In this document: piece by piece, positions 278-19,688 of the stretch
Position numbering within the stretch: position 1 is the stretch's first letter
How the letters are laid out: each line of letters starts with the position of its first letter
Assembly (NCBI GenBank): GCA_034370385.1
Contig: JAXMKZ010000034.1
Span: 1-52,614 of the forward strand
Source: Coriobacteriia bacterium
Lineage (GTDB): Bacteria > Actinomycetota > Coriobacteriia > Anaerosomatales > PHET01
Direction: 5' to 3'
Length of the DNA: 52,614 bases
Program-made: the position numbers and the translations under genes
The notes under the pieces: generated by a model
Seen by the model: only the letters and a program-made list of their open reading frames with translations
Database searches by the model: none
What the model was told of the DNA's origin: nothing

Positions 278-315
278 GTGTGTTGTACGTTAGCGGCATC
301 GATAAGGAGTCCGTG

Positions 316-899: not shown

Positions 900-977
900 C
901 CAAGGCATCGAGCGGACGGCGTCAGGTAGTATCAACCTGAGCGGTCTTGACCGCTGCTCATGCCTCACACGTTAGCC
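894..977 (+). other. attC site 2
   Basis: GACTAAC (894-900) to GTTAGCC (971-977). The arms GGCATCGAGCGGACGGC and GCCGCTGCTCATGCC are complementary with extrahelical bases. An inner stem TCAGGT/ACCTGA closes the hairpin. This is the clearest fold in the array. The vapC stop codon overlaps the left half-site. Confidence 0.85.
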
Positions 978-1005
978 GCACTCATGGGACTTGTAGGAGG
1001 ACGCG

Positions 1006-1566: not shown

Positions 1567-1593
1567 CTGATGTCCGACGCTCTTGTCAGAGGC

Positions 1594-1678
1594 GGCTAAC
1601 AAGCGCTTCCGGCCGACTTCGTCAGCCCTCGGCTACCATGTCCTTCATCGGGCGCGGCTGACGCGCCACACGCTAGGC
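1594..1678 (+). other. attC site 3 (slightly degenerate)
   Basis: GGCTAAC (1594-1600) to GCTAGGC (1672-1678). The right half-site carries C where GTTAGGC is expected. Arms beginning AAGCGC and ending with GCGCC are partly complementary. The same GCTAGG variant occurs inside attC 6. Confidence 0.6.
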
Positions 1679-1696
1679 CCAACAAGGGGAGGGCAT

Positions 1697-2497: not shown

Positions 2498-2519
2498 CTC
2501 AGGTCTCGGTGGCGTGTGG

Positions 2520-2621
2520 GCGTAACAAGGGCATCGACGCCGACAAACCGCGGCAGTGGGGTAGTCTGACTTGAGGGCGGGGTCGGGCCGCGGTTCGCTG
2601 GTCATGCCTAACACGTTAGCG
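2520..2621 (+). other. attC site 4 (long form)
   Basis: GCGTAAC (2520-2526) to GTTAGCG (2615-2621), 102 bp. It has AAGGGCATCGACGCCGAC in the left arm, GGTAGTCTGACTT in the middle and GGTCATGCCTAACAC in the right arm. It is longer than its neighbours because of a larger central loop. Confidence 0.75.
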
Positions 2622-2725
2622 CTACAGCCGCACCGCCCGTTGCCTCACGTAAGACTGTCGTCGAACGTCACCTTCGTTGACTCATCATAGATGTCGTCGA
2701 AATCGGGTGCCTGCACCTCCCGCGC

Positions 2726-2754
2726 TTGACTCGGCTTGGGTCTCGGTATATACA
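2726..2754 (+). promoter_or_regulatory. Promoter of the antitoxin-like operon
   Basis: TTGACT (2726-2731), a 17 bp spacer, then TATACA (2749-2754). A second overlapping AT-rich hexamer follows around 2762. Transcription would start about 30 bp before the ATG at 2792. This is the best promoter match in the array and fits a cassette that carries its own control region. Confidence 0.6.
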
Positions 2755-2791
2755 AGAAATAGTATAACGACTTCTGCCGAGAGGTCCGTGC

Positions 2792-3106
2792 ATGACAGAC
2801 CACCCCATCCAAACCTGCTCCATGACCGAGCTTCGCCGTGGGCTTTCGCGCCACATCGCACAAGTCAGTGAGAGTGGGCAACCGCTGTATATCACCCGTC
2901 GCGGCAAGATCGTCGCCGTCCTCCTGTCGCTTGAACACTACGAGTTGATGCTGCGACAGCGAGAGGATCTCCGTTCTCAGTTGCGTATAACGCAGCCCGA
3001 CTCGCCTCCGGAGACTCCCGATGCCCGCTCCTTCCTTCGTGACCTGAAGGGGACCGCAGTGGACGAGGCCGACTATCGCCGCTACCTGGAAGAGAAGTAC
3101 CGGTGA
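2792..3106 (+). CDS. Phd/YefM-type antitoxin-like protein
   Basis: A 104-residue protein. Residues about 10-55 (CSMTELRRGLSRHIAQV, then PLYITRRGKIVAVLLSLEHY) match the Phd/YefM fold, whose N-terminus binds operator DNA and whose C-terminus normally blocks a RelE or Doc toxin. The remaining tail, ending ADYRRYLEEKYR, is longer than usual. GAGAGG precedes ATG 2792. The stop overlaps the GTG start of the next gene (GTGA). No RelE, YoeB or Doc gene follows, so its partner is unclear: it may be the operon's repressor rather than an antitoxin. Confidence 0.75.
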   Translation: MTDHPIQTCSMTELRRGLSRHIAQVSESGQPLYITRRGKIVAVLLSLEHYELMLRQREDLRSQLRITQPDSPPETPDARSFLRDLKGTAVDEADYRRYLEEKYR

Positions 3107-4479
3107 ATGACCTTCGAACCCATCACGTCCACCCTGGTGAGGTACTCCGCGAGGACTTCCTCCCAGAGTATGGGCTGGACGTGCCGGACTTCTCGCAGCG
3201 CCTCTGCCTACCGGTCGACCGGGTACGCGCCCTTCTCCTGGAACAGGAGCCGATCGATGCAGAACTGGCACTTCGGCTGGGGCGCCTGTTCGGTAACTCG
3301 GGTCAGTTCTGGATGAACTTGCAGCGCGATGCCGACCTAGCCGAGGCGCGCGGCCGTCTTCGCTCCGAGCTGATGCACGTGCGAGGCATGTCGGACACCG
3401 GATGGGCGGCATCGAGCACGGCCGATGGTGAGAGCTGGCGCGACTGGATGAGCGCGACAACTCCATCGGACACTCTGTCCAACCTCCTCAAGCACGGCGG
3501 CGGTGTCTCAACGGCTTATCCCGCGATTGTTGCGGGCCTCAGTCCCGAGCGGCTCCACGCGCTAGCGAGCGGCGCCGAGCGCTTCACCGTGGCGGACGAT
3601 GCCACCTTGTCGGCCGCTTTCGGATACTCGCTGGGGTACTGGCTGCGCGCACAGGCAATCGCCGATGCCACCTCCGGCATCGACGCAGGCAGGCCGGAAC
3701 TGGGTCCTGCCGAGCGAGTTCGCGACGTGCTTGCGCGAATCGAAGTAGAGCAGGACGTTCGCATACTCTATGCCGTCGAGTCAGGGAGCCGCGCGTGGGG
3801 CTTCGCGTCGACCGATTCGGACTACGATGTCCGCTTTCTTTACGCCCACCGCCCCGAGTGGTACCTCACCACCCAACGCCGCAGCGATGTGATCGAGCGG
3901 CCGATCGAGGGTGACCTCGACGTCAGCGGATGGGACCTGCCCAAGGCGCTGCACCTTCTCGGCAAGTCGAATCCCCCGCTTCTCGAGTGGCTGCGCTCGC
4001 CAATCGTCTACTTGGAGAGCGGGTCACTGGCGCCACGCATGCTCGGCATGGCCGACCGCTTTGTGTCACCAGGCGCATGCATGCATCACTACCTTCATAT
4101 GGCCGGAGGAAACTTCCGAGAGTACCTGCAGGGCGAACAGGTTTGGCTCAAGAAGTACTTCTACGTGCTGCGGCCGGTCTTGGCGTGCCGTTGGATTGAG
4201 GGTCACGACACCCTTCCCCCGGTGGAGTTCGAAGAACTTGCCGATGAAGTGCTGCCGCAACAGCTGCGCATGCCGGTCGCTGACCTGCTGGTGCGCAAGC
4301 GTGCGGGCGAGGAGCTTGACCGCGGTCCTCGCATACGCGTTCTCAGTGAGTTCCTGGCCGAGGAGATCTCAAGACTCAGCGAGGTCGCCCGCAACCAAGA
4401 ACGTGCGCAGCCCCCAGACCGCGACGACCTGGATGCCCTCATGCGCGAGATTCTGCGCCAAACCTGGGCAGCCACGTAG
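3103..4479 (+). CDS. HigA-like HTH fused to an RlaP/YcgL-type nucleotidyltransferase
   Basis: 458 residues. Residues about 5-85 form a HigA-type XRE domain (HPGEVLREDFLPEYGL, then LALRLGRLFGNSGQFWMNLQ). A linker of about 120 residues has no recognised domain. From about residue 205 there is a polymerase-beta-like nucleotidyltransferase of the RlaP type: GSRAWGFASTDSDYDVRFLY carries the GS...DSDxD catalytic signature, followed by WDLPKALHLLGKSNPPLLEW. The active-site residues look intact. GTG start 3103 overlaps the upstream stop. Nucleotidyltransferases can act as antitoxins that AMPylate toxins, or as toxins themselves; here the activity is unknown. The fusion is unusual. Confidence 0.72.
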   Translation: MNDLRTHHVHPGEVLREDFLPEYGLDVPDFSQRLCLPVDRVRALLLEQEPIDAELALRLGRLFGNSGQFWMNLQRDADLAEARGRLRSELMHVRGMSDTGWAASSTADGESWRDWMSATTPSDTLSNLLKHGGGVSTAYPAIVAGLSPERLHALASGAERFTVADDATLSAAFGYSLGYWLRAQAIADATSGIDAGRPELGPAERVRDVLARIEVEQDVRILYAVESGSRAWGFASTDSDYDVRFLYAHRPEWYLTTQRRSDVIERPIEGDLDVSGWDLPKALHLLGKSNPPLLEWLRSPIVYLESGSLAPRMLGMADRFVSPGACMHHYLHMAGGNFREYLQGEQVWLKKYFYVLRPVLACRWIEGHDTLPPVEFEELADEVLPQQLRMPVADLLVRKRAGEELDRGPRIRVLSEFLAEEISRLSEVARNQERAQPPDRDDLDALMREILRQTWAAT

Positions 4480-4504
4480 TGAATACCCCGACGAAGGAGT
4501 ACCG

Positions 4505-4837
4505 ATGAGCCGATGCACGACCCGCCATGAGGCCGATGACGAGCCGCATGCCGTCCGCTTGTCGCTGGCCCGTGAGATCGCGCAGATCGTCTCGGTGCGG
4601 GGTCTTACCCAATGCGAAGCGGCGGAGCTGCTGGGGACTGCCCAGCCACGGATATCTGCGCTGATGAGCGGCAACGTCGAGGGCTTCTCGCTTGACCGTT
4701 TGGTGAAGTATCTCAACCTTCTCGGCGAGGACATCCACATCGTGGTGCTCCCAAAGCCCCCCGGGCGAGAGCGTGCACGCACGTGGGTGACCAACCCAGC
4801 GTCCGGCGCCGGCACAGGAGGCTCGGCGCATGCGTAG
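4505..4837 (+). CDS. XRE-family HTH protein, HigA2-like antitoxin
   Basis: 110 residues. Residues about 18-80 form a helix-turn-helix (LTQCEAAELLGTAQPRISAL, then FSLDRLVKYLNLLGEDIHIVV), the layout of antitoxins paired with RelE/gp49-type toxins. The C-terminal 30 residues are Gly/Ala/Pro-rich and probably disordered. GAAGGAG lies upstream of ATG 4505 and separates it by 25 bp from the fusion gene. No RelE-type toxin gene is adjacent. It overlaps the next gene by 8 bp. Confidence 0.75.
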   Translation: MSRCTTRHEADDEPHAVRLSLAREIAQIVSVRGLTQCEAAELLGTAQPRISALMSGNVEGFSLDRLVKYLNLLGEDIHIVVLPKPPGRERARTWVTNPASGAGTGGSAHA

Positions 4838-5675
4838 ACGGTTCGAGCCGGAGCCCGCAGGCGCCATGCTGCAAACCGAGTTCCTCGACGACTACGAACT
4901 GACCGCCAAGGAGCTCGCCGAGGCAATCAGGGTTCCGATTGAGCGGGTGGAGCGACTGCTCGCGGGCGTCGACCCGCTCGATGCGGATCTGGCGTTACGA
5001 CTCGCCAAGCTGTTCGGCGGTCAGGCCGACGGGTGGCTGTACTGGCAGCGAGCACGGGATCTGTGGCGCGCCCGGGAGCCGATTGTCGAGGACCTCGAAG
5101 CAATCGTTCCCCTCGATCCAGACAGCCGGCTGTCGGTGCGCGAGGACGAGCCGCTCGAGCCTGAGTTAGTCGAGGAGCTCAAGCGGCGAATGGCGGACTA
5201 TGACGACCCCCGCAGGTGGGTCATCGTAAGCAGAATTCTCGACGAGGACGTGCCGCTGTACGAACGCGATATCGGGCGTAGTTTCTACGACGTGGCAACC
5301 GGCTGCTACACATTGGATCTACTGCATGCGACGCCCTTCAAGAAACGGGAGATTGCCGAGGCAACGGCGGCGGTCCTTGGCGATCGTCAGCACGTTGTCG
5401 AAATCACCCGAGAGGACCTCAAGAAGCCGGCACATGACGACGAGGTTGATCGCGAAGTCCGAGATTGCCTTCTCAAGAACTCAGGACGGGGGATGTCCGC
5501 GTGGGATGCCGGTACGTACCTTCGCGACAACGATGACATGGCAGCTTACTTGGAGGCTGCGGCCAAGAATGGTGACGGCGGTGTGATCGCCGTCGCCGTG
5601 GCCGACGTCCTCAGAGCGATGACCGCGAAGACCACGGTCGAGTATCTTCGCGCAACGGGTCAGATCAGAGAGTGA
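4830..5675 (+). CDS. HigA-like protein with an antidote-module C-terminus
   Basis: 281 residues. The N-terminus (GAMLQTEFLDDYELTAKELA, then LALRLAKLFGGQADGWLYWQ) is a HigA-type HTH, clearly related to the N-terminus of the gene at 3103. The middle (about 115-185) has no recognised domain. The C-terminus (YLRDNDDMAAYLEAAAKNG, then GVIAVAVADVLRAM) matches the separate addiction-module antidote family that pairs with RelE/HigB-like toxins. It therefore appears to join two antitoxin types. It overlaps both neighbours, which indicates a coupled operon. Confidence 0.68.
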   Translation: MRRRFEPEPAGAMLQTEFLDDYELTAKELAEAIRVPIERVERLLAGVDPLDADLALRLAKLFGGQADGWLYWQRARDLWRAREPIVEDLEAIVPLDPDSRLSVREDEPLEPELVEELKRRMADYDDPRRWVIVSRILDEDVPLYERDIGRSFYDVATGCYTLDLLHATPFKKREIAEATAAVLGDRQHVVEITREDLKKPAHDDEVDREVRDCLLKNSGRGMSAWDAGTYLRDNDDMAAYLEAAAKNGDGGVIAVAVADVLRAMTAKTTVEYLRATGQIRE

Positions 5676-5866
5676 GAGTAGAGGTCGATATCGAGGAGGA
5701 GCTGTTCGCCGAAGCGGCGGGGCTGGCGCGTCGGCTCAGGTGGTCGATCGACCGGCTGGTCACCGAGGCGCTGAGTGACTACGTGGCCGGGCGATCAGCT
5801 GATGGCATGCGGGGGTCCTTCTCCGGCATCGACACTCCTGTGTCTCGCGAGGATGACCGGATCTAG
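5672..5866 (+). CDS. Orphan antitoxin, ribbon-helix-helix VapB-like
   Basis: 64 residues starting at GTG 5672 inside the previous stop (GTGA). MRVEVDIEEELFAEAAGLAR followed by WSIDRLVTEALSDYV is a ribbon-helix-helix pattern. The tail MRGSFSGIDTPVSREDDRI closely resembles the PIN-binding tail of the VapB at 316-522 (MRGFLAGIDSTVERDEDRV) although the DNA-binding domains differ. A VapC partner would be expected next, but no PIN gene follows. Confidence 0.65.
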   Translation: MRVEVDIEEELFAEAAGLARRLRWSIDRLVTEALSDYVAGRSADGMRGSFSGIDTPVSREDDRI

Positions 5867-6184
5867 CAGCGCTGGTTGGGTCCACCAGCATGAACTGGTC
5901 AGTGTGCACACCGTTCGGTCCCCCTGCCGCGCAATCGTTGTATCGTCAGCATATGGGGTTCTCCTTCGAACACGTGTGGTTTCACCGTGATGGTGACACG
6001 CTTCTGGCACGCGCGTTCGTGGCGCGCAAACAAGTGGAGGGCAAGAGCATGCGCTCGACGGTGCCTGAAGCGCTACACGCATCGCACGCGCCACCTTCGG
6101 CATACCGAAGGAGATCGAAGCGGCAGGCTGAGGTCGCTTCGTCGAGGTCGTCTTCAGGAGCGACCTGCTTCGGTGGCCGCGTCG
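5867..6184 (+). other. Non-coding or decayed stretch before attC 5
   Basis: About 320 bp between the orphan antitoxin and attC 5. A reading frame from 5890 to 6222 is open but shows no recognisable domain, has poor composition and runs into the attC site. A vapC gene would be expected here, but I cannot find PIN motifs in any frame. It looks like decayed or foreign filler. Confidence 0.4.
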
Positions 6185-6275
6185 GCCTGACAGAGGAGCG
6201 ACGAGCGGACGGCGTCAGGTAGACTGCGGAAGAGAGGCGGTCGGCCAGCCGCCGCTCATTTCTGACACGTTGGGC
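6185..6275 (+). other. attC site 5
   Basis: GCCTGAC (6185-6191) to GTTGGGC (6269-6275). It contains GAGCGGACGGC, then GTCAGGTAGACT, then GCCGCCGCTCATTTC, matching the arms and inner element of attC 2. The right half-site fits GTTRRRY exactly. Confidence 0.78.
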
Positions 6276-6295
6276 AGAATTGCATCGGGGGAATC

Positions 6296-6502
6296 GTGGA
6301 CGTTTCCAGGGAGCAGGCTGTGGCGGCCTGCGAGCAGGTCAGGTCGGCCAACAGCCGGCGATATCTGAGCTTGAGTCATTGGCAGTGCTGGGGCTGCATG
6401 CGCTACAGCGGCGACGATCCGGCCAAGCGCTGCATGCACACCGACGTCGGCGGCTGGGACGCCTGCCCGCATGTGAACCGCTTGCTCGGATCACGGGCCT
6501 GA
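6296..6502 (+). CDS. Small four-cysteine protein, probable metal binder
   Basis: 68 residues from GTG 6296. Cysteines at about 31, 34, 46 and 57 (WQCWGCMRY, KRCMH, DACPHV) could bind one zinc ion or an iron-sulfur cluster. The rest is polar. It begins 20 bp after attC 5, the usual place for the first gene of a cassette. I do not recognise the family. Homologues annotated only as hypothetical would be expected. Confidence 0.55.
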   Translation: MDVSREQAVAACEQVRSANSRRYLSLSHWQCWGCMRYSGDDPAKRCMHTDVGGWDACPHVNRLLGSRA

Positions 6503-6670
6503 CGGGTTCTCGGCCTGTGCATTCGCCTGCCCAGTCAGCGCATCAACTCGACGCGACCCAGGTTGACGTATTCTGAGAGCGAACTGGCGCGCGGGCTTTG
6601 CGTAAACGCGTTCGACACAATCGGCCGGCGCTCGTGCGCGAAGACTGTCATGCTCCTGCTGGAGGGCCGC

Positions 6671-7306
6671 ATGTCCACAAGAATCGAGATGCTCCACGAG
6701 GTGCGCGACGAGGACCTGCTCCGTGCTGCAGCGACGTTGGCGCGCGCATTCGAGCATGATCCTGTCTGGGCCAGAGCATTCGAGGGTGTGCCTCGGGAGA
6801 CGATGGCGGCTTGGTTCGAGGGTCCGATTCGCTACTGCCGGGAGTTCGGGCGCGTCTACGCGACCTCAGAGAGGCTTGAAGGAATCGCTGGGGTGGTGCC
6901 CGGTGAGTATGCGCGTATGACCATGAGGCGCGCGATGCGGGCGGGCACCATGAAGATGGCCCCGCGCATGGGGCTGCAGCTGATGATGCGCGCGCCAAGA
7001 ATGATGCGCATGTTCGCGCCCCTCGACTCCGACCGAAAGAGGCATATGGGTGCGCGAGCGTTCACCTATGTCATGATCGTCGGCGTGGACCCCGAGCATC
7101 AACGGCAGGGACACGGCGGCGCGCTGCTTCGAGCGCTCATGGAGGAAAGCGACCGGATGGGGATCCCGTTGTACCTAGAGACGGAGACCGAGGAGAACCG
7201 ACAGATGTACGAGCACTACGGCTTCGATCTCCTCAGCGAGATCGCGCTTCCCGTCGTCGGGCTTCCCATGTGGGAGATGTTGAGGGAGCCGGCACTGTCG
7301 CGATGA
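6671..7306 (+). CDS. GNAT-family N-acetyltransferase
   Basis: 211 residues. The acetyl-CoA motif A is clear near residues 135-165: VDPEHQRQGHGGALLRAL (the Q/R-x-x-G-x-G/A loop), followed by a beta strand YLETETEENRQMYEHYGF typical of the GNAT C-terminal half. An Arg/Met-rich insert (about 75-125) precedes it. ATG 6671 is supported by GGAGGG (6661-6666); an ATG at 6650 has no RBS. The acceptor substrate is unknown; small-molecule or antibiotic acetylation is common for cassette-borne GNATs. Confidence 0.78.
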   Translation: MSTRIEMLHEVRDEDLLRAAATLARAFEHDPVWARAFEGVPRETMAAWFEGPIRYCREFGRVYATSERLEGIAGVVPGEYARMTMRRAMRAGTMKMAPRMGLQLMMRAPRMMRMFAPLDSDRKRHMGARAFTYVMIVGVDPEHQRQGHGGALLRALMEESDRMGIPLYLETETEENRQMYEHYGFDLLSEIALPVVGLPMWEMLREPALSR

Positions 7307-7361
7307 TGCGTCGAGCAAAGGCGACTCACGCGTCACACCGACGCTGACGGAAGAGAATCGC

Positions 7362-8075
7362 ATGGTCAGCGGAATCCGCAGGATCGACTTCGGCGTGAAC
7401 TGCTATCTCATCGATGCTGAGGGCGGCTACATCCTCATCGACACGAGCTTCCCGAGCAAGCAGGACAAGCTAGACGCCGAACTCGCCGCGGCAGGTTGCG
7501 GGCCCGATGGACTGCGCCTCATCGTCCTGACCCACGGCGATGTCGATCATGCGGGCAACAGTGCACATCTTCGCCGCACTCTGCATGCCCCCATCGCGAT
7601 TCATCGCAACGACGCCGAGATGGTGCGCAGCGGGGACATGGGCTCAGGCAGGAAGGACCAGCCCGACAGACACACGATCGCATTCAGGATCCTGACACGG
7701 GGCTCGGGGCTGCTGAACAAGTTCATGGGGGCGGGCGAGGGTTTCGAGGCTTTCGAGCCCGACGTGCTCCTAGAGGACGGGCAGGATCTCTCAGTCTATG
7801 GGCTCGACGCACGCGTGGTGCATCTTCCGGGCCATTCAAGCGGATCAATAGGCGTCGTCACGGGCGACGGCGACCTGTTCTGCGGCGATTTGCTCGTGAA
7901 CGTGACGAAGCCCTCAGTCCATTTCTACATAGACGACCTAGCCCGGGCGGATGAGAGTATTCGTAAGCTGAACGGCCTCGGGGTCGAGACCGTTCACCCC
8001 GGGCACGGCAAGCCGTTCCCGCTCGCACAGTTGCCGACCCAGGGCCGATCACGCGGTCGCTTCTTGCGGTCGTGA
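7362..8075 (+). CDS. Metallo-beta-lactamase fold hydrolase
   Basis: 237 residues. The metal site is complete: THGDVDHAGN (about 58-67, the HxHxDH-like motif), LPGHSSGSIGV (about 150), FCGDLL (about 170) and HPGHGKPF (about 211). Family members hydrolyse thioesters, lactones or phosphoesters, and a few are true beta-lactamases; substrate choice cannot be read here. The catalytic first His of the motif is replaced by Gly at one position (HGDVDH rather than HxHxDH), as in some MBL hydrolases. It shares a cassette with the GNAT gene. Confidence 0.8.
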   Translation: MVSGIRRIDFGVNCYLIDAEGGYILIDTSFPSKQDKLDAELAAAGCGPDGLRLIVLTHGDVDHAGNSAHLRRTLHAPIAIHRNDAEMVRSGDMGSGRKDQPDRHTIAFRILTRGSGLLNKFMGAGEGFEAFEPDVLLEDGQDLSVYGLDARVVHLPGHSSGSIGVVTGDGDLFCGDLLVNVTKPSVHFYIDDLARADESIRKLNGLGVETVHPGHGKPFPLAQLPTQGRSRGRFLRS

Positions 8076-8077
8076 GG

Positions 8078-8162
8078 TGCTAGCAAGCGCTTCCCGCCGA
8101 CACACGCACGCGCTAGGCTGAAAGGCGGCGCTTGTGTGCGGCTGAAACGCGACACGTTAGGA
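8078..8162 (+). other. attC site 6 (degenerate left half)
   Basis: TGCTAGC (8078-8084) to GTTAGGA (8156-8162). AAGCGCTTCCCGCCGACACACGC in the left arm is complementary to parts of GGCGGCGCTTGTGTGCG in the right arm. The left half-site has G in place of the expected A. Confidence 0.65.
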
Positions 8163-8165
8163 CGA

Positions 8166-8693
8166 GTGATCGGGGTGGGACGTCTGAACTCAACGGCTCT
8201 CTCTTCGGTGATTGCCCGCAATGGAGCGCTGTTGATCGTGCCTCCTTTGGTGATTTCGACCGGCTTGTGGGCGCGCCTCCCGGCGGCATTCGGCAACGAT
8301 GCTTTTGACCAAGGCATTCCTGCATGGCTGCTGATATCGGAGAACGCGCTGCGCGCCGCCGTACTCCTTCTTCCCGCATTGTTGCTTTTCGGCGCAACCG
8401 GACGACTGCAACGACTGGGCTGGATTCTGTACGGGCTAGGACTCATCTCCTATCTAGCGAGCTACGTGGTGTTGATTACTCTGCCAGCAAGCGCTTGGTC
8501 CTCGAGCGCACTCGGTTTCACTGCACCGGCATGGACGACCGGGTGGTGGCTCCTCGGCATCGGGCTAGTTTGCGCTGACACCTGGCTGCCCCTTTCATGG
8601 AGTCGCCTTATCTACCTGATACCGGCGGCGGGATTCGTCTTGACGCATTCGGCTCACGCTTGGCTTGCATACCTGCTTGTCCGACCGTCCTAA
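8166..8693 (+). CDS. Four-helix integral membrane protein
   Basis: About 175 residues with some four or five hydrophobic segments (ALLIVPPLVISTGLWARLP, AVLLLPALLLFGATG, YLASYVVLITLP and TGWWLLGIGLVCADTWLP). GTG 8166 directly follows attC 6 and fits the cassette layout; earlier in-frame codons overlap the attC. No catalytic motif was recognised. It is a one-gene cassette of unknown function. Confidence 0.6.
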   Translation: MIGVGRLNSTALSSVIARNGALLIVPPLVISTGLWARLPAAFGNDAFDQGIPAWLLISENALRAAVLLLPALLLFGATGRLQRLGWILYGLGLISYLASYVVLITLPASAWSSSALGFTAPAWTTGWWLLGIGLVCADTWLPLSWSRLIYLIPAAGFVLTHSAHAWLAYLLVRPS

Positions 8694-8768
8694 CAAGCAA
8701 CAGCGGACGGCGAGAGCTAGAATCAACCAGTAGGTCATGGGCCGCTGCTCATGCCCAACACGTTGGGC
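8688..8768 (+). other. attC site 7
   Basis: TCCTAAC (8688-8694) to GTTGGGC (8762-8768). It has AGCGGACGGCGAGAGCTAG in the left arm, and GGGCCGCTGCTCATGCCC then AACACGTTGGGC at the right. The stop codon of the membrane protein lies inside the left half-site. Confidence 0.8.
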
Positions 8769-8786
8769 CGAGCGTAGGAGGCTGCG

Positions 8787-8876
8787 ATGACGACCTACGT
8801 TATCGTTGCTGTCATCAGTGGGTGCTCTACGAGAGCCTGCCCGGGAGCAGCGGAGTGCTCCGGGGCGGGTCCGTGA
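8787..8876 (+). CDS. Possible 29-residue peptide
   Basis: An ATG at 8787 with GTAGGAGG just upstream opens a 29-codon frame (MTTYVIVAVISGCSTRAC and on). The strong RBS directly after attC 7 is the only support. It may be a remnant of a cassette gene cut short by a frameshift, or a leader for the downstream glutaminase. Confidence 0.3.
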   Translation: MTTYVIVAVISGCSTRACPGAAECSGAGP

Positions 8877-8921
8877 GGCGGATCTTCTCCGCCAGCACCG
8901 ATAACCGGGGAGGGTGATCGG

Positions 8922-9923
8922 ATGACGATAAGACGACGAGACACCGATGACGAGACCGTCTCGCGATTCGTGTCGACCGGCCGTTTGCCCACGGCCGATC
9001 TGGTCCGGTCGTACGTCGCAGAAGCACACGACCGGTATCTATCCACCACGGGCGGCGCCAACTCCCAAGTCTATCCGGCTCTGGCGGAAGCGGAGCCCGA
9101 CCTCTTCGGCATCTGCATCGTCGGCGTCGATGGTCAGGAGTATGCGGCAGGGGATGTGGACGCCGGCTTCGCGATCATGAGCGGCGCCAAGCCCTTCGTG
9201 TTCGCGCTTGTCTGCATGGCCATCGGATCCGAGGAAGCGCGGAATCTGATCGGCATGAATGCCACGGGTCTGCCGTTCAACTCACTGGCGGCCGTCGAGC
9301 GTGATGCTCAAGGCAAGACGAATCCAATGGTCAACGCGGGCGCCATCACTGCGACCAGTCTGGTTCCCGGCGACACGCCCGAAGACAAGTGGACCGTCAT
9401 CCAGGACGGGCTGTCGCGCTTTGCCGGGCGGCCGCTCTTCCTCGACGAAGGGGTGTTGCGTTCCGCCTCGGCGACCAACCATCGCAATCGGGCTATCGTC
9501 AACCTGCTCCGAGCTTATGGCAAGCCCTATTGCGACCCGGATGTGGCTTTGGATCTCTACACCAAGCAGAGCGCGCTGCTCGTGACCGCGAGGGATCTTG
9601 CGGTGATGGGGGCGACACTCGCGCACGGCGGCGTGAACCCGTTCACCGGGGAGCAGGTGGTCGGCACGGAAGCGTGTCGTCACACCCTGGCGGCGATGAT
9701 CACCGCGGGCCTCTACGAGACGTCCGGGGACTGGCTGTGGGACGTTGGCCTTCCTGGCAAGAGCGGCATCGGTGGTGGCATCATGACCGTGTCGCCCGGG
9801 AAGGGTGGGCTCGGGACATTCTCGCCTCCGCTGGACGCCGCGGGTAACAGTGTCAGGGGCCAGGCAGTCGCGCGCTTTCTCTCGTGCCGGCTGGGACTGG
9901 ACCTTCTGGCTTCGCCGAGTTAG
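8922..9923 (+). CDS. glsA: Glutaminase (GlsA family)
   Basis: 333 residues, close to the usual 300-330 of serine-dependent glutaminases that convert glutamine to glutamate and ammonia. Hallmarks: the SxxK catalytic pair in IMSGAKPFVF (about 87-96), PMVNAGAI (about 137), ATNHRNRAI (about 184), LYTKQSALLVTARDLA and PGKSGIGGGIM near the C-terminus. GGGGAGGG (8908-8915) precedes ATG 8922. It is a metabolic enzyme carried as cassette cargo. The gene stops in a GTTAGGC sequence that looks like a right attC half-site, possibly by chance. Confidence 0.88.
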   Translation: MTIRRRDTDDETVSRFVSTGRLPTADLVRSYVAEAHDRYLSTTGGANSQVYPALAEAEPDLFGICIVGVDGQEYAAGDVDAGFAIMSGAKPFVFALVCMAIGSEEARNLIGMNATGLPFNSLAAVERDAQGKTNPMVNAGAITATSLVPGDTPEDKWTVIQDGLSRFAGRPLFLDEGVLRSASATNHRNRAIVNLLRAYGKPYCDPDVALDLYTKQSALLVTARDLAVMGATLAHGGVNPFTGEQVVGTEACRHTLAAMITAGLYETSGDWLWDVGLPGKSGIGGGIMTVSPGKGGLGTFSPPLDAAGNSVRGQAVARFLSCRLGLDLLASPS

Positions 9924-9928
9924 GCCCG

Positions 9929-10060
9929 GTGCGAAGCGTCCACTGGCCTTGGCCCCAGTGGCGCATCTGCTTCCGGTTCGAGGATGGAGACGCCTACGAC
10001 GTCGAGATCCAGACTGCGGAAGAGAAGCGCGTGCGCCGCAGGTTCGGCCAAGCCTGTTAG
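9929..10060 (+). pseudogene. 3' fragment of a HigB/RelE-type toxin gene
   Basis: In one frame the sequence reads VRSVHWPWPQWRICFRFEDG and continues DAYDVEIQT. QWRICFRxEDGDAYDVEI is the conserved C-terminal part of HigB/RelE toxins. The first half of a normal HigB (about 90 residues) is absent. The last codons read into AGACTGCGGAAGAGAAG, which resembles the inside of attC 5, and end in GTTAGGA (10055-10061). This is a toxin gene remnant joined to half of an attC site. Confidence 0.6.
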
Positions 10061-10080
10061 GACGACGACGGGCGACAGCC

Positions 10081-10110
10081 TTAACGAGACCTGAGCGGCT
10101 CGCGTATAGT
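10081..10110 (+). promoter_or_regulatory. Promoter of the leader/efflux transcript
   Basis: TTAACG (10081-10086) and TATAGT (10105-10110) are separated by 18 bp. Transcription would begin near 10117, about 15 bases before the leader ATG at 10132 and 150 bases before the efflux gene. This leaves a long leader that holds the hairpins described separately. Confidence 0.5.
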
Positions 10111-10131
10111 AGCCTCGTTGCTCGAATCCTC

Positions 10132-10272
10132 ATGCGCATCAGGTTCAGGAGTCCAGAATGCAGTCTGCGCGTCTCCGCTAGCACAGAGACCCCGGTGGTC
10201 GGGGTCCGGACATCATCTCGCCGCCCCACCGGGGCGCGTCCGTCCGTGCCTTCCTTCTTGGAGATGTCATGA
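10132..10272 (+). CDS. Putative regulatory leader peptide with an Arg-x-Arg start
   Basis: 46 residues beginning MRIRFRSPE, then through the hairpin region and ending FLEMS. The stop overlaps the ATG of the efflux gene (ATGA). Macrolide-responsive leaders such as ErmDL contain MRLRFPT; the arginine-x-arginine motif stalls ribosomes holding macrolides. The match (MRIRFR) plus position and hairpins is the evidence. No good RBS is visible; a short 5' UTR or near-leaderless start is possible. The reading frame is longer than typical leaders, so translation past the first dozen codons may be incidental. Confidence 0.5.
   Translation: MRIRFRSPECSLRVSASTETPVVGVRTSSRRPTGARPSVPSFLEMS
10188..10236 (+). 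promoter_or_regulatory. Attenuator with mutually exclusive hairpins
   Basis: Hairpin A pairs GACCCCG (10188-10194) with CGGGGTC (10200-10206). Hairpin C pairs CGCCCC (10222-10227) with GGGGCG (10231-10236) and is followed by pyrimidine-rich CCTTCCTTCTT. Alternatively CCCCGGTGG (10190-10198) pairs perfectly with CCACCGGGG (10226-10234), which excludes both. A ribosome stalled at the start of the leader could change which forms. Confidence 0.55.
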
Positions 10273-11528
10273 ATACTCGAACTGACAGCTGGCTCCGCAC
10301 TTTCCTCATCATCTTTACCGGGCAGGCTTTCTCCCTACTGGGGAGTTCCGCGGTCAACTTCTCACTCGTGTGGTGGCTGACCGCTGAGACCGGTTCTGCA
10401 TCGATCCTCGCGTATGCCTCGATAGCGGCCATCCTGCCGCAGGCCCTTCTCGGACCAATCGCTGGCCCCTTCATCGACCGATGGGATCGACGACTCACGA
10501 TGATCGCCGCGGATCTGATGATCGCGGCAACGAGTGTCTGGCTCTTGCTCGCGTTCGCAGAAGGTGCACCGTCGGTCACGGCCATCATGCTCACTATCGG
10601 GCTGCGGTCCGCGTGTGCCGCCTTCCACACTCCGGCGAGCCAGGCGGCGGTTCCCATGTATGTGCCTTCGGACCAGCTGATGCGAGTCGCCGGATGGAAC
10701 TTCTTCATGAGCTCGGGTGTGGCGATGGCCGGACCGGTGCTGGGGGCCTTCATGATGGCGGCCACGTCGGTCTCGGTAGTCATGATGGTCGACATTCTCG
10801 GGGCTGGGATTGCCGTCGCATCGCTCCTGATGGTACGCATTCCCAACCCCCAGAGAGATGAGAGCGATTCAGAGCACATCGACTTCGTCGTCGAGTTCGT
10901 CGATGGCTGGCGAGAGCTGATTCGACACAGAGGGCTGTTCGATCTGACGCTCGTGCTCGCGATGGTCACGCTTCTGTATATGCCGCTCAACGCGCTGTTC
11001 CCGTTGATGACGTTCTCGCACTTCGGCGGAGATGCGGCCGCTGCGAGCTACGTCGAGGTCGCGTTCGGGGCGGGGATGCTCGTCGGGTCGATGGCGATCG
11101 GCGTGATGTCACAGCGCTACTCAGGAGTTCAGCTTATCGGCGCGGGCATCCTTCTTGTCGGCGGCATGCTCGCGGCTTCTGGCCTGCTCCCGACATCTGC
11201 GTTCTGGGTCTTCGTTTTGATGTGCGTGGCGATGGGCTTCTCGGTTCCGCTCTTCGGCGCTCCGATCACGGCGATGTTTCAAGGGCTCATCGACCCAACG
11301 AAGCTAGGGCGTGTCATGTCGCTCTACATGACCATCGCCATGCTTGCGGCACCGATCGGGTTGCTGGTGGCCGGTCCGCTGGCAGAACGGGTGGGTGTGG
11401 CTTGGTGGTTCGCGATCTCGGGCGTGCTCATTGCGGTGATGGGGCTCTTGGTCTGGCTACTCCCGGCGGTTCGCGAGCTCGATGCGGCCATGGTCCTTGC
11501 GACCTCCGAACCGGCGGCTGACAAGTAG
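10269..11528 (+). CDS. MFS drug exporter, Mef-like macrolide efflux family
   Basis: 419 residues with about 12 transmembrane segments. SWLRTFLIIFTGQAFSLLGS at the start and GPIAGPFIDRWDRRLTMI (loop 2-3, the MFS motif A region, about 60-78) follow the pattern of Mef(A) and related MFS_3 exporters. It exports a small hydrophobic compound by proton antiport; macrolides are suggested by the family and by the leader upstream. ATG 10269 overlaps the leader stop, with TTGGAG just before. It is a single-gene cassette bounded on the right by attC 9. Confidence 0.75.
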   Translation: MNTRTDSWLRTFLIIFTGQAFSLLGSSAVNFSLVWWLTAETGSASILAYASIAAILPQALLGPIAGPFIDRWDRRLTMIAADLMIAATSVWLLLAFAEGAPSVTAIMLTIGLRSACAAFHTPASQAAVPMYVPSDQLMRVAGWNFFMSSGVAMAGPVLGAFMMAATSVSVVMMVDILGAGIAVASLLMVRIPNPQRDESDSEHIDFVVEFVDGWRELIRHRGLFDLTLVLAMVTLLYMPLNALFPLMTFSHFGGDAAAASYVEVAFGAGMLVGSMAIGVMSQRYSGVQLIGAGILLVGGMLAASGLLPTSAFWVFVLMCVAMGFSVPLFGAPITAMFQGLIDPTKLGRVMSLYMTIAMLAAPIGLLVAGPLAERVGVAWWFAISGVLIAVMGLLVWLLPAVRELDAAMVLATSEPAADK

Positions 11529-11534
11529 CAAGCG

Positions 11535-11616
11535 TCCTGACACGGGCATCGAGCAGAACACCAGGAGGTAGACTGACCTGCGAGGGCATGCGCGTCTGCT
11601 CATGCCTACGTTAGGC
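11535..11616 (+). other. attC site 9
   Basis: TCCTGAC (11535-11541) to GTTAGGC (11610-11616). GGGCATCGAGCAGAACACC in the left arm and GGTAGACTGACCTG in the centre match attC 1 and attC 11 almost base for base. GCGCGTCTGCTCATGCC forms the right arm. (Number 8 is reserved for the half-site fused to the HigB remnant.). Confidence 0.8.
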
Positions 11617-11645
11617 GCACGGCACGATCATGAAAGGACCAGACG

Positions 11646-12527
11646 ATGGTTGACACGGGGCTATCAGGTCGGGTCGCTCTGGTGACCGGCGCGAATCACG
11701 GAATCGGCGCGGCGATAGCCGTGGCACTGGCGCGCGAAGGCGCGAGGGTGCTCATCACGTACTTGCGCCAGAGTCCCGACGTCTACATGGTCGCCCCCGA
11801 GGACGCGGAGGCCGCAGCGAGTCCAGGAAGCGCCTACTATGCCCGCGAGATCGCACAGACGTCCGAATCCGTGGAGGCCGCGATCGCCGCATTCGGCGGC
11901 GTATGCGCAGCGCGCGAAGCCGACCTCGCAGACGCACAATCGATTCCGCTGCTGTTCGACGCGGCGGAGAGTGAGTGGGCGGGTGTCGACATCCTGGTGA
12001 ACAATGCGGCACTCGCTATCCCTGACACGTTTCTTCCTGATTCGATCCTCGGCGATGAAGCCACATTCGCGGACGAATACACCCTCAGGACCCTGACTGT
12101 TGAGGGCCACGAGGAGCACTTCGCCGTCAACAGCCGTGCGGTCGCGCTGATGATGGCCGAGTTTGCACGGCGCTCCATTAAGCGTGGCGGCACATGGGGT
12201 CGCATCATCAACATATCCACCGACGGGTCTTACTGTCATCCGTCGAACGTTTCGTACGGTGCGAGCAAGCACGCAGCTGAGAGCTTCACCCGCTCTGCTG
12301 CCGTTGAGCTCGGCCCCTACGGAATCACCGTGAATGCGATCTCGCCCGGTGCGGTTCAGACCGGCTGGATGACCCCCGAGTTCGAACGCGATATCGCCGC
12401 TGGCTACCCGCTTGGCCGAATCGGACAACCAGAGGACATCGCGGATGCAGCGGTCTTTCTGGCCTCGGAGCAGGCCGGGTGGATCACGGGACAGATCCTG
12501 AACGTTGGTGGCGGGAATCGGATGTGA
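11646..12527 (+). CDS. Short-chain dehydrogenase/reductase
   Basis: 293 residues. A Rossmann NAD(P) motif TGANHGIGAA (about 14-23), ILVNNAAL (about 117) and the catalytic YGASK (Tyr about 205) with a Ser upstream (NISTDGS) are all present. The C-terminus GWITGQILNVGGG is typical of FabG-like SDRs. The family oxidises or reduces a hydroxyl/keto group; the substrate is unknown. An insert of about 45 residues after the second strand (VYMVAPEDAEAAASPGSA) is longer than in FabG. ATGAAAGGA precedes ATG 11646. A fragment of a close paralogue occurs at 15757. Confidence 0.85.
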   Translation: MVDTGLSGRVALVTGANHGIGAAIAVALAREGARVLITYLRQSPDVYMVAPEDAEAAASPGSAYYAREIAQTSESVEAAIAAFGGVCAAREADLADAQSIPLLFDAAESEWAGVDILVNNAALAIPDTFLPDSILGDEATFADEYTLRTLTVEGHEEHFAVNSRAVALMMAEFARRSIKRGGTWGRIINISTDGSYCHPSNVSYGASKHAAESFTRSAAVELGPYGITVNAISPGAVQTGWMTPEFERDIAAGYPLGRIGQPEDIADAAVFLASEQAGWITGQILNVGGGNRM

Positions 12528-12679
12528 GCGACCTGCTACTACTCGTCGCTGTAATCGCTGCGGGAATGGGAATCTGGGCAGCCATAACCAAGTCGAGGCG
12601 GCTTGCGATCACAGCGGGAGTGCTTGGGGGCGGTGCGCTTCTGGTCGTCGGGGGGATACTGCTCGCCATCCGGCTCTAG
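12524..12679 (+). CDS. Small two-helix membrane protein
   Basis: 51 residues from GTG 12524, which overlaps the SDR stop (GTGA). Two hydrophobic segments (LLLLVAVIAAGMGIWAAI and AGVLGGGALLVVGGILLAI) are joined by a short basic loop TKSRR, a hairpin membrane protein. Coupled translation with the SDR suggests they are co-expressed. I do not recognise a family. Confidence 0.55.
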   Translation: MSDLLLLVAVIAAGMGIWAAITKSRRLAITAGVLGGGALLVVGGILLAIRL

Positions 12680-12692
12680 GCTGTAGCGCGGC

Positions 12693-12780
12693 ACCTAACC
12701 AGGACATCAACCTGACGGCCAGAAGCGTCACGGTTGACACCGCAAGCGCTCAGGCCGCAGGTTATGCCTGAACACGCGAG
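12693..12780 (+). other. attC site 10 (degenerate)
   Basis: ACCTAAC (12693-12699), then AGGACATCAACCTGACGGCC. The right end CAGGTTATGCCTGAACACGCGAGGG matches the usual GCTCATGCCTAACACGTTAGGG but the GTT is changed to GCG. It is probably no longer a good recombination substrate. The right boundary is approximate. Confidence 0.5.
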
Positions 12781-12796
12781 GGAGAACGGGAGTCCG

Positions 12797-13537
12797 GTGA
12801 GGGGAGCACGCGCGACAGTGGCCTTGCTCGTCGCGAGTCTGTGTGTCGGCACGGCGTGCACCGCGCCCCGCCAGTCGGGCTCGACTCCCGATGTTGTCAT
12901 CGTGGGTTTCGGCGACAGCATAGTGTATGGCTCCAACTACCCGAAGCCCTGGCTGTACACCCTGCTTGAGCGCCTCACCAGCGTCCCGATCACGTACGTG
13001 CCGGAGTGGCCTTGGGACTGGGATGCTCCAAGCACTCGCCATGACCGCTGGTATGAATCGGGCGGCGTGCGCGTCTACAACAGCGGTATCGATGGAAACA
13101 CAACCGCGCAGCTGCTCTCTCGGTTCGAAGAGGACGTCGCGGCGGTGAAGCCCGACAGCTGTCTGATTCTCGGCGGGACGAACGACATCTTTCGAGGCGT
13201 TCCCCTCTCCACTATCGAGGCCAATCTCACCCAGCTCTACGACGACTGCGCCGAAGCCGGCATCACTCCGGTCGCGTGCACCCTGACGCCGGTCAAGCAG
13301 GGGTTCCTCCTCGGCGACTCTGCTGATGCGGATGCCCTCAACTCGTCGATCGACACACTCAACGCGTGGATCAGGACTCACTGCGCGGAGCGCAGCATCG
13401 CCGTCGTTGACTTCAATACCGTGCTGAAGGCGGATCCGGCGACCTACCTTCAGGATGACGGCATTCACCCCAGCGAGGCGGGCCATGATGCAATGGGTCG
13501 CTCAGTAGACCTGGCTGTGCTGGGCCTTGCTCGTTAG
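12797..13537 (+). CDS. SGNH/GDSL hydrolase, exported
   Basis: About 246 residues. A hydrophobic leader TVALLVASLCVGTAC near the N-terminus suggests export, perhaps as a lipoprotein although the box is not canonical. Catalytic blocks: FGDSIVYGS (Ser, about 40), NSGIDGNTTAQLL (block II), GGTNDIFRG (about 130, block III) and DGIHPSEAGH (Asp-His, about 222). This is an esterase or lipase of unknown substrate. GTG 12797 follows a GGGAG; an in-frame ATG at 12764 overlaps attC 10 and is less likely. Confidence 0.78.
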   Translation: MRGARATVALLVASLCVGTACTAPRQSGSTPDVVIVGFGDSIVYGSNYPKPWLYTLLERLTSVPITYVPEWPWDWDAPSTRHDRWYESGGVRVYNSGIDGNTTAQLLSRFEEDVAAVKPDSCLILGGTNDIFRGVPLSTIEANLTQLYDDCAEAGITPVACTLTPVKQGFLLGDSADADALNSSIDTLNAWIRTHCAERSIAVVDFNTVLKADPATYLQDDGIHPSEAGHDAMGRSVDLAVLGLAR

Positions 13538-13561
13538 CAGTGGGAGCTTACCGTCGCGTCT

Positions 13562-13645
13562 GCCTGACAAGCGCAGCGCAGAACGCCAGAAGGTAGACTG
13601 ACCTGAACGCGCATCGGCGACTGCTCATGCGCAACCACGTTGGGC
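13562..13645 (+). other. attC site 11
   Basis: GCCTGAC (13562-13568) to GTTGGGC (13639-13645). AAGCGCAGCGCAGAACGCC, then GGTAGACTGACCTG, then GGCGACTGCTCATGCGC are near copies of attC 1 and attC 9. Confidence 0.82.
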
Positions 13646-13712
13646 GGACCAGCACTGAGCACCGCGACGGAAGGCTGCGGGCGACTAACTGGACTCGGCG
13701 GAGGAGGGTGTC

Positions 13713-14294
13713 GTGGAGGTAGAGCGTAGGCATCGCATCATGCTCGCGATCGGCGTCGTACTTGTGGCAATGCCCCTCATGGGTTGCGCTCTTCTCAACG
13801 CAATCGAGAGGGGGAACGATAACTTCAAGAAGGATGACCCACCCGCTGTCCAGCTCGACACAGGGGAAGGCATCATCGCTTCTGAAGGCGCGGCCCCTCA
13901 AGACGAGACTGCGGCAGAGGTGGACGCATCCGTTCTGTTCGACAACCAGAACATCCTTGCGGTCCAGAACGGCGGGACGTCACCGACATTCGAGCTTTCT
14001 TCGGCCACCGTCATCGCCAAGATCCAGACGTATCATTGGAACGACGCCATCGGAAACAGCTCCACCGGCACGATCTCGCTGAAATCGGATGACGGGACCG
14101 TGTACGGGCCCTGGGAGACCGTAGGGGCAGAAGGACAGGGTGGCGTGACCAACGCCTACTGGGCAGCCAGCCCCAACGTGAAGCTTCCGGCTGGCCGGTA
14201 CACAGTGATTGATTCCGACCCGAGCACGTGGTCACAGAACGCAGACTCTGGCGGAGAGGGTTTCGTGATCGTGTATGCGCGGGCTGCCCCGTAG
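13713..14294 (+). CDS. Lipoprotein of unknown function
   Basis: 193 residues from GTG 13713 with GGAGGAGGG upstream. Residues about 8-25 form a signal sequence that ends in a lipobox LMGC (AIGVVLVAMPLMGC), so the mature protein would be lipid-anchored. The rest (FDNQNILAVQNGGTSPTFEL, then WETVGAEGQGGVTNAYW) looks like a beta-sandwich domain such as a carbohydrate-binding or discoidin-like fold, which is only a guess. It is a one-gene cassette. Confidence 0.65.
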   Translation: MEVERRHRIMLAIGVVLVAMPLMGCALLNAIERGNDNFKKDDPPAVQLDTGEGIIASEGAAPQDETAAEVDASVLFDNQNILAVQNGGTSPTFELSSATVIAKIQTYHWNDAIGNSSTGTISLKSDDGTVYGPWETVGAEGQGGVTNAYWAASPNVKLPAGRYTVIDSDPSTWSQNADSGGEGFVIVYARAAP

Positions 14295-14309
14295 CGATTG
14301 CGTGCAGCG

Positions 14310-14372
14310 GCTCAACAATGAGATGAGCCGACTCGCTTCGCTCTCGGCTTATCTCGCCTCACCCAACGAGGC
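14310..14372 (+). other. attC site 12, short type unlike the rest
   Basis: GCTCAAC (14310-14316), then GAGATGAGCCGA, a loop CTCGCTTCGCTC, TCGGCTTATCTCGCCT and a degenerate right end CAACGAGGC (14364-14372). The inner arms pair well. The AGCCGA...GCTTCG...TCGGCTTA core is that of the classic 60 bp attC sites of proteobacterial mobile integrons. The other sites here lack it. Confidence 0.6.
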
Positions 14373-14588
14373 AAGAATGTGACAACCATGCCGATAATGG
14401 GCACCTCATAGTATGGACCCAGCCATTATCACGGTTCTCTCACGATTCTCGTCGCCACGGTGGCTGCGCTCGTTCTCGAGGCCGTCCGCATAGACGTCGT
14501 TGCGCTTGTCTGTACGCGCCGGTTCGTGTCATTGGATCTTTGGATTCCCGACCTCGACGGCGCGCATCGCGCAACTGGAGGAGAGAGC

Positions 14589-15743
14589 GTGGACGCACTC
14601 GGCAAAGACCTCGCTGATGGACTTTTTGAGAATTGCGACCCGCCCTGCCTTTCGCTCTACCAGCCCACGCATCGGCACCGTCCGGACAATGAGCAAGATC
14701 GAATCCGGTTCGGGATCCTTGTGAAGGCGCTGGAGGAATCGCTCCTGCGGACAGTCCCGAAGAGAGAGGTCCCGCCATTGCTGGAGCCGTTCTTGGCATT
14801 GGCGGATGACCGCGACGTGTGGAACCATACCCTTGACGGACTGGCGGTGCTGGGCGCAAAGGGAGTGTTTCGAGTCTACAGACTGCAGCGGCCCGTCGCC
14901 GAACTGGCCGTAGTGGCGGACAGCTTCCATCTCAAGCCCCTGATGCGCATTCTTCAGTCAGCCGACCGTTATCAGGTTCTCGGCGTGAACCGACGGGAGG
15001 CCAGACTCTTCGAAGGTAATCGTGACGCCTTTGACGAGATCGCACTGCATCGGGATGTGCCACGCACGCTCACGGATGCACTGGGGGAGGAGCTGACCGA
15101 GCCGCACCTTACCGTCGCCTCCTATGGCGGCGCAGGTGGATCCCAGGCGTCCATGCACCATGGCCACGGGGGGAAGGAAGCAGAGGTGGACATCGATACG
15201 GAACGCTTCTTCCGCGCCGTTGACCGGGGAGTCCTTGAGCATCACTCGCAGCCGTCGGGCTTGCCACTGATTCTAGCCGCGCTCCCCGAGCACCATCATC
15301 TATTTCGCGAAGTGAGCGGTAATCCGTTCCTGATACCGGAGAGCATCGATACTCATCCGGATGCCCTCTCGTCAACTGACGAGCTCCGAGAGCGCGTCTG
15401 GCAGCTCATGGAGCCTCGGTACCTGGCGCATCTGGCCGCACTGGTCGAGGAGTTCGGCACCGCACGCTCCGAGGGGCTCGGGGATGACGATCTGGCTCAG
15501 GTCGCCAGGGCGGCTGTTGGTGGACGGGTGGCTACAGTGCTGATCGAGGCCGAGCGCGAGATTCCCGGACGCGTGGATACAGCGACCGGCGATATCGAGC
15601 CTGGCGACCTGGCGCACCCCGAGTTTGATGACGTGCTCGACGACCTCGGCACGCTGGTGGCGAAGATGGGCGGAAACGTCGTTATCGTACCGACCGAACA
15701 GATGCCGACGGAGAACGGAATAGCTGCGGTCTATCGCTACTGA
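14589..15743 (+). CDS. BaeRF-like protein (bacterial eRF1-related family)
   Basis: About 384 residues. The N-terminal half holds CLSLYQPTHRHRPDNEQDRI and RFGILVKALEESL, the signature of the bacterial archaeo-eukaryotic release-factor-like group (BaeRF family 3). The C-terminus (LGTLVAKMGGNVVIVPTEQM) is the L7Ae-like part seen in this group. These proteins are thought to act on ribosomes or stalled translation, but the biochemical role is unproven. GTG 14589 is chosen because GGAGGA (14577-14582) lies 6 bases upstream; a longer frame from 14460 has no RBS. Confidence 0.68.
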   Translation: MDALGKDLADGLFENCDPPCLSLYQPTHRHRPDNEQDRIRFGILVKALEESLLRTVPKREVPPLLEPFLALADDRDVWNHTLDGLAVLGAKGVFRVYRLQRPVAELAVVADSFHLKPLMRILQSADRYQVLGVNRREARLFEGNRDAFDEIALHRDVPRTLTDALGEELTEPHLTVASYGGAGGSQASMHHGHGGKEAEVDIDTERFFRAVDRGVLEHHSQPSGLPLILAALPEHHHLFREVSGNPFLIPESIDTHPDALSSTDELRERVWQLMEPRYLAHLAALVEEFGTARSEGLGDDDLAQVARAAVGGRVATVLIEAEREIPGRVDTATGDIEPGDLAHPEFDDVLDDLGTLVAKMGGNVVIVPTEQMPTENGIAAVYRY

Positions 15744-15756
15744 GGGCCAGCAGACT

Positions 15757-15803
15757 ATTCGCGGACGAATGCACCCCCAAGACCCTGACTATCGAGGGCC
15801 ATG
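15757..15803 (+). pseudogene. Fragment of an SDR gene
   Basis: This stretch matches the SDR gene at about 12065-12111 closely (the stem GCGGACGAAT is shared, then ACCCTGACT and GAGGGCCA). By eye about 40 of 47 bases agree. Translated it gives a degenerate form of FADEYTLRTLTVEGH. The rest of the gene is missing, so it is a remnant left by recombination, not a separate gene. Confidence 0.6.
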
Positions 15804-15841
15804 GGCCGATGGGTACTGCATTTCGGGGATTGGGGGACTCT

Positions 15842-16099
15842 ATGGCGGAGCCCAAGCTCAGCAGGGCGCAGGCGCGCGGAGCTCTCGTCTACAGTTTCGT
15901 TGGTTTCGTTGTCTGTGTCTGGCTCCTGAGGCTCATCCTGGTCGGCGATTGGGAGGGCGTTGTCTACACGAGTGCCGGGCAGGTGGTCGAACTGCAGTTC
16001 TTCTTCGTCATCGGCGCCATCGGTGCCGCGGGGGCCTTCTTCAGCATGCTCGATGACGCTTTTCCGGGTATCTGGAGGTCGTTGTCACGCCGCCGGTAG
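15842..16099 (+). CDS. Small two-helix membrane protein
   Basis: 85 residues from ATG 15842. Two hydrophobic segments (ALVYSFVGFVVCVWLLRLIL and LQFFFVIGAIGAAGAFFS) flank a short polar stretch, and the tail is basic (RSLSRRR). An earlier ATG at 15809 would add 11 residues that overlap the SDR remnant region; GGGG before 15842 is weak support. No family recognised. Confidence 0.5.
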   Translation: MAEPKLSRAQARGALVYSFVGFVVCVWLLRLILVGDWEGVVYTSAGQVVELQFFFVIGAIGAAGAFFSMLDDAFPGIWRSLSRRR

Positions 16100-16110
16100 T
16101 CTCCAGCACG

Positions 16111-16197
16111 GCCTAACCCGCGCGTCCAGTCGACGGCGCAGGCGGTAGTCCACGAAGTCGGGCGTACGGCCGTGGCTGAAGCGAAATAGCGTTAGCC
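16111..16197 (+). other. attC site 13
   Basis: GCCTAAC (16111-16117), an exact match to RYYYAAC, to GTTAGCC (16191-16197). It carries CAGTCGACGGCGCAGGCGGTAG and CGGCCGTGGCTGAAGC. The arms are more diverged from attC 1 than are attC 9 and 11. Confidence 0.72.
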
Positions 16198-19656: not shown

Positions 19657-19688
19657 GTTCAGCGCGCCGCCTAAGGAGTCGTGAGGAC

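Follow-up and report, generated by a model that had tools for sequence, protein, structure and literature searches.

A probable macrolide-inducible efflux module with a MefAL-like leader peptide on an integron gene cassette of an uncultured actinobacterium

The window analysed here is a stretch of 52,614 nucleotides from a Coriobacteriia bacterium (contig JAXMKZ010000034.1 of assembly GCA_034370385.1, forward strand), and the parts of the pump locus described below are located on its plus strand. At 10269..11528 it encodes a Mef-like MFS efflux pump of 419 aa. The pump was assigned by its scores against the Mef family profiles (295.6 bits for MefA, 293.7 for MefB and 275 for MefC) and by its best plasmid relative, mef(B), to which it is 41% identical over 99%. 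The three scores are far under the curated NCBIfam cut-offs of 675, 800 and 870 bits, respectively, and so do not place the protein in Mef(A), Mef(B) or Mef(C) in the strict sense. They are, on the other hand, far above those obtained for other named exporters such as Tap (71.6 bits) and Tet(V) (47.5 bits). A role as macrolide exporter is therefore putative and taken from the best family matches only. No sequence relative of the pump was found among solved structures.

In the source genome the gene is the only match at E <= 1e-50. Among 298 genomes of the class its closest relatives were found at locus L004 (88% identical), which comes from another family of the same order, and at L005 (69% overall). 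An alignment-based search of genome contigs returned seven pump relatives, the closest being 65-66% identical.

The gene that follows the pump encodes an SDR oxidoreductase and not mel/msr(D), and it lies beyond an attC site. It was also compared with the SDR gene beside plasmid mef(B), and the 21% identity obtained is not meaningful as kinship. With a covariance model built from nine repeats, a training set that included both of the sites scored here, the attC downstream of the pump (11535..11616) reached 80.7 bits (E = 2.4e-22) and the upstream border in L004 reached 78 bits. In the window this upstream border is under the threshold of the model; it is the right half of a degenerate attC (10011..10062) that ends with GTTAGGA and is 82% identical over 50 nt to an attC right half on contig C47. 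The identity between the window and L004 begins exactly at 10057, which is the G|TTAGGA crossover point. Pump, promoter and leader therefore form one integron gene cassette (10057..11610) that is common to two families. The cassette was seen in two arrays, those of the window and of L004, and in the latter one more gene follows the pump before the next attC. Further copies were found neither in genome contigs searched with single-protein patterns, nor in viral contigs, nor in plasmids searched by DNA, nor in 396 genomes of the phylum at E<=1e-78.

Direct repeats of ~80 nt separate the genes of the first 16-20 kb of the window and have attC-like borders such as GCTAACAAGCGC...ACGTTAG. The attC model recovered sites on the plus strand only, spanning 143 to 16197, and in addition a weak one at 19577-19657. 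The whole source genome harbors 48 attC-like sites, which are also present on contigs C5, C14, C37, C39, C44, C47, C54 and C63, and the L004 genome harbors 74. An integron integrase was identified in the source genome (G000:C15:14976-15920, 456 bits against a cut-off of 265), and integrases above the curated cut-off are encoded in 46 of the 69 genomes of the order. Complete integrons, in which the integrase is directly followed by attC sites, were obtained at G019:C4:165651-181454, G075:C4:1162096-1171135, G006:C1:1726649-1734672 and G087:C1:210894-212267. Within this order of actinobacteria, integrons are a common feature. No complete integron was reported for Actinobacteria in a survey of complete genomes (PMC9024848), and a review counts Actinobacteriota among the integron carriers (PMC8618304).

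Several other elements of the window were recorded. A second related cassette gene is present in both arrays (window 996-1534, L004 117-655; 67% identical DNA) and encodes a RibD C-terminal/dihydrofolate-reductase-like domain. A 45 nt piece of the SDR gene (12065-12109) recurs with 89% identity 3.7 kb downstream (15757-15801), where it may have been left behind by a cassette copy that has since been lost. Close to where the array ends, 14460-15743 encodes a bacterial archaeo-eukaryotic release factor domain (baeRF family 3, 172 bits). At 50694-50986, direct repeats of about 75-190 nt that overlap in part and are 75-80% identical were detected.

The earlier note on this DNA had placed a promoter ahead of the efflux gene, and promoter-like hexamers (TTAACG-18-TATAGT) are indeed found at 10081..10110, with a predicted transcription start near 10117, and L004 has a counterpart of the form TTCACG-17-TACCAT. 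Sites of this kind occur twice in 6 kb, where 0.8 would be expected. The note had further proposed a frame starting with MRIRFR (10132..10272) as the macrolide-sensing leader. Its ATG at 10132 is present in the window, but it is not preceded by a Shine-Dalgarno (SD) sequence and is missing in L004. In addition, ATG frames with Arg/Lys-x-Arg/Lys in the first ten codons arise in 13% of dinucleotide shuffles of 10117-10257, and the frame was therefore rejected as leader. Taken singly, the motifs listed in the note carry little information.

An ORF that had gone unnoticed starts 26 nt downstream of the MRIRFR start. It encodes the seven-codon peptide MQSARLR followed by a stop (10158..10181), and an SD sequence AGGAG (10147..10151) is located 6 nt before its ATG. 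As expected for a leader of this class, it is a short SD-led ORF 5' of a macrolide-resistance-type gene (10269) and lies on the same predicted transcript. When the upstream regions of the window and L004 were aligned, the conserved block opened at the AGGAG (10147) and read AGGAGTCC(A)GAATGCAGTCTGCnCGTnTCCG. In this block the SD sequence is followed by the ORF, which reads MQSARLR-stop in the window and MQSARFR... in L004, and the Arg/Lys-x-Arg/Lys motif is conserved as codons 5-7 in both (RLR and RFR, respectively). From the predicted transcription start to the AGGAG, over 30 nt, the two sequences are much less alike than in the block that follows. SD sequence, ATG and Arg-x-Arg are thus kept in L004 while the DNA 5' of the SD sequence diverges. 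The leader of L004 has no stop after Arg-Phe-Arg and extends to 37 codons, overlapping the pump start, an arrangement that could couple the translation of leader and pump.

The closest peptide precedent is the streptococcal leader Mef(E)L/MefAL (MTASMRLR), which comprises eight codons and starts 34 nt from +1 behind the SD sequence AGGAGG; experiments showed that induction by macrolides depends on it (PMC4335068). The peptide contains the Arg/Lys-x-Arg/Lys motif of macrolide arrest (PMC10314930). MQSARLR is similar in size, in its SD sequence, in the terminal Arg-Leu-Arg-stop and in the Mef-type pump downstream, and it starts 41 nt from +1 as compared to 34 nt. By analogy, the peptide may act like MefAL. 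A macrolide-sensing leader is probably present ahead of the pump, as far as can be read from the sequence; the earlier proposal of macrolide stalling at an Arg-x-Arg leader that induces a Mef-like pump is well supported by this comparison, with the correction that the ORF is MQSARLR at 10158 and not MRIRFR. The surroundings differ. The mefA/mefE-msr(D) units of Mega and Tn1207 have a 5' region of 327 nt with an intrinsic terminator (PMC4335068, PMC10314930), whereas here 152 nt separate the predicted start from the pump and a terminator is absent. Moreover, mefA/mefE are followed by mel/msr(D) and reside in transposons of Firmicutes, whereas here an SDR cassette follows and the gene is part of an integron cassette of an uncultured actinobacterium.

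Other leaders share single features. ErmDL/ErmKL (MTHSMRLRFPTLNQ) have the Arg-Leu-Arg arrest motif in common with MQSARLR, but they are longer peptides that precede methylase genes and act by transcriptional attenuation. MsrDL (MYLIFM) is likewise very short and precedes either msrD or a Mef-type pump gene (mef(B)), but it belongs to another peptide class that arrests at termination and has no Arg-x-Arg motif. For the attenuated integron cassette the nearest precedent is cmlA1 of Tn1696, a cassette with its own promoter and a 9-aa leader for which translational attenuation was proposed (PMC8876359). Both cassettes have a promoter of their own and an MFS drug exporter for which attenuation by a short leader is proposed; the differences are the drug (chloramphenicol), the cat-type peptide, the alternate stem-loops and the class 1 integron.

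The combination of an SD sequence, an ATG, 4-12 codons and Arg/Lys-x-Arg/Lys was obtained in 3 of 20,000 shuffles, with a criterion that was chosen after the ORF had been seen but that equals the published MefAL signature. A degenerate pattern (AGGAG-N4-9-ATG-N9-Arg-Leu-Arg-stop) gave four matches in the 69 genomes of the order. The 2.7-Mb source genome has a single one of them, which precedes the only close Mef-like gene there. The other three all overlap long reading frames and none was convincing as a leader; two are not true RLR-stop sequences, as one ends with Arg-Leu-Ser and one has TGG in place of the stop.

Small SD-led ORFs were also observed 5' of many, though not all, Mef-like genes of the class. 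A conserved, very short ORF of this kind, MLASMRIWL, is found about 100-114 nt upstream of the pump homologues L016, L026, L028, L057, L060 and others, while MAGQLYL, MYYVFQ, MHHAFL, MGIFQ and others are found about 215-245 nt upstream. The MAGQLYL/MYYVFQ/MHHAFL types, observed at L007-L015, L019 and L023, are conserved, very short and SD-led. The Mef-like gene of L006 is preceded by MWIVFM, and plasmid mef(B) (NZ_AP027473.1, L147 1009-1029) by ATGTATTTGATATTCATGTAA, which encodes MYLIFM and is identical to the MsrDL leader. Control by leaders would thus be common among genes of this pump family; of the Mef-like genes examined, only the present cassette showed the Arg-x-Arg class. At L049 (2973-3005, from a MAG labelled Gaiellales), a ten-codon ORF, MSLYFTGHCS, precedes a 65%-identical pump, and its stop overlaps the pump start.

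Given that most of the more distant pump homologues showed no such short ORF, the leader might be coincidental and the pump constitutively expressed from the cassette promoter. The missing stop after Arg-x-Arg in L004 would fit this explanation, as would the folding of the whole UTR, which is no better than that of shuffled sequences (z = -0.26). Nevertheless, it appears quite improbable in view of the rarity of such an ORF among shuffles and of its uniqueness in 2.7 Mb at the only close Mef-like gene, together with the conservation of SD sequence, start and Arg-x-Arg in L004 and the close match to MTASMRLR.

All helices with 6 or more pairs that can form within 10117-10271 were enumerated and compared with L004, which is 72% identical in this region and is the only close relative available for the comparison. 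Among 19 helices, a single one with at least 3 variable pairs was fully kept. Its left arm (10169..10177) lies inside leader codons 4-7, and its right arm (10259..10267) contains the pump SD sequence GGAG (10260-10263). All 9 pairs are kept in L004, one of them being changed on both sides; as there is only one close relative, this conservation rests on one comparison. Leader codons 4-7 are the main predicted partner of the pump SD sequence in the free RNA, with pairing probabilities of 0.70 in the window and 0.80 in L004.

The RNA elements named in the earlier note were less well conserved. Both local hairpins are present in the window. For hairpin 1 (GACCCC/GGGGTC, 10188..10206), L004 can still form the CCCC/GGGG pairing if the loop is shifted, whereas in hairpin 2 (about 10222-10236) 2 of 6 pairs are kept. 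The long-range pairing (10190..10234) between CCCCGGTGG (10190-10198) and CCACCGGGG (10226-10234) is indeed an exact reverse complement, but with 5 of 9 pairs kept in L004 it was rejected as a switch that competes with both hairpins. The version in which MRIRFR at 10132 senses the drug and this pairing acts as anti-attenuator can draw on the existence of frame and pairing in the window and on the appearance of the pairing in the predicted stalled state. It is nevertheless hardly credible, since the frame is devoid of an SD sequence and is of a kind common among shuffles, and since L004 has lost the start and broken the pairing. No Rfam family was matched in a search of the window.

The kept helix suggests translational attenuation, in which a ribosome stalled on the leader would release the pump SD sequence. 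In L004, the calculated cost of opening the SD sequence is lower by 2.2-4.8 kcal/mol upon stalling. In the window it is lower by only -0.1 to 1.5 kcal/mol, and when the whole start region is included the change has the opposite sign, against release, so that the energies in the window support the model weakly. Because the helix is kept and SD release is clear in L004, but weak or reversed in the window, translational attenuation is favoured but unproven. Alternatively, MQSARLR might sense macrolides through transcriptional attenuation, perhaps Rho-dependent, or through mRNA protection, and not through release of the pump SD sequence. For mef(E)/mel, transcriptional attenuation and leader-dependent mRNA stability have been described (PMC4335068), and a pyrimidine-rich stretch just before the pump as well as the scant folding support for release of the ribosome binding site in the window are consistent with such a mechanism. 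We regard it as somewhat unlikely, since no terminator-like site was found in 8000-14000 and since the helix between leader and SD sequence is conserved while the hairpins are not. Likewise, the features of the mef(E)/mel attenuator, an intrinsic terminator between leader and pump and mel/msr(D) downstream, are both lacking.

Taken together, we consider it likely that this integron gene cassette holds a self-contained efflux module inducible by macrolides. Transcription would start near 10117 from the promoter inside the cassette, and ribosomes would load at the AGGAG and translate the seven codons of MQSARLR. In the absence of drug the leader would be completed, and the RNA of codons 4-7 could pair with the pump SD sequence, which would keep translation of the pump low. 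When a macrolide occupies the exit tunnel, the ribosome would fail to add the final Arg of Arg-Leu-Arg and would stall with Leu6 in the P site. The stalled ribosome would cover the anti-Shine-Dalgarno codons and thereby leave the pump SD sequence accessible, which would allow synthesis of the pump. Sequence and comparison supply the predicted leader, its SD sequence, the conservation of both, the resemblance to MefAL, the helix kept in L004 and the borders of the cassette; the stall and the identity of the drug are what we infer. The least certain step is that control is exerted on translation and not on transcription or mRNA stability, for which we see slightly under an even chance.

The novelty lies in the combination of a MefAL-like leader with an integron cassette, in the host group and in the arrest codons possibly serving as anti-Shine-Dalgarno arm. 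That actinobacterial chromosomal integrons contain a mobile, self-regulated macrolide-efflux cassette in which the arrest-motif codons (Ala-Arg-Leu-Arg) are themselves this arm is put forward with greater reserve. As the arrest codons would form the arm, peptide sensor and RNA switch would reside on the same bases and a separate alternative hairpin would not be needed. The occurrence of integrons across the order adds evidence from a phylum where the survey of complete genomes had found no complete ones (PMC9024848). If our model holds true, environmental actinobacteria also possess an inducible resistance module of the streptococcal-transposon type, in the form of an integron cassette that would be for macrolides what the cmlA cassette is for chloramphenicol, the drug that regulates it. 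Since such a cassette would bring along both promoter and drug sensor, its expression would be independent of its place in the array, and it would point to an environmental reservoir of pre-regulated resistance cassettes.
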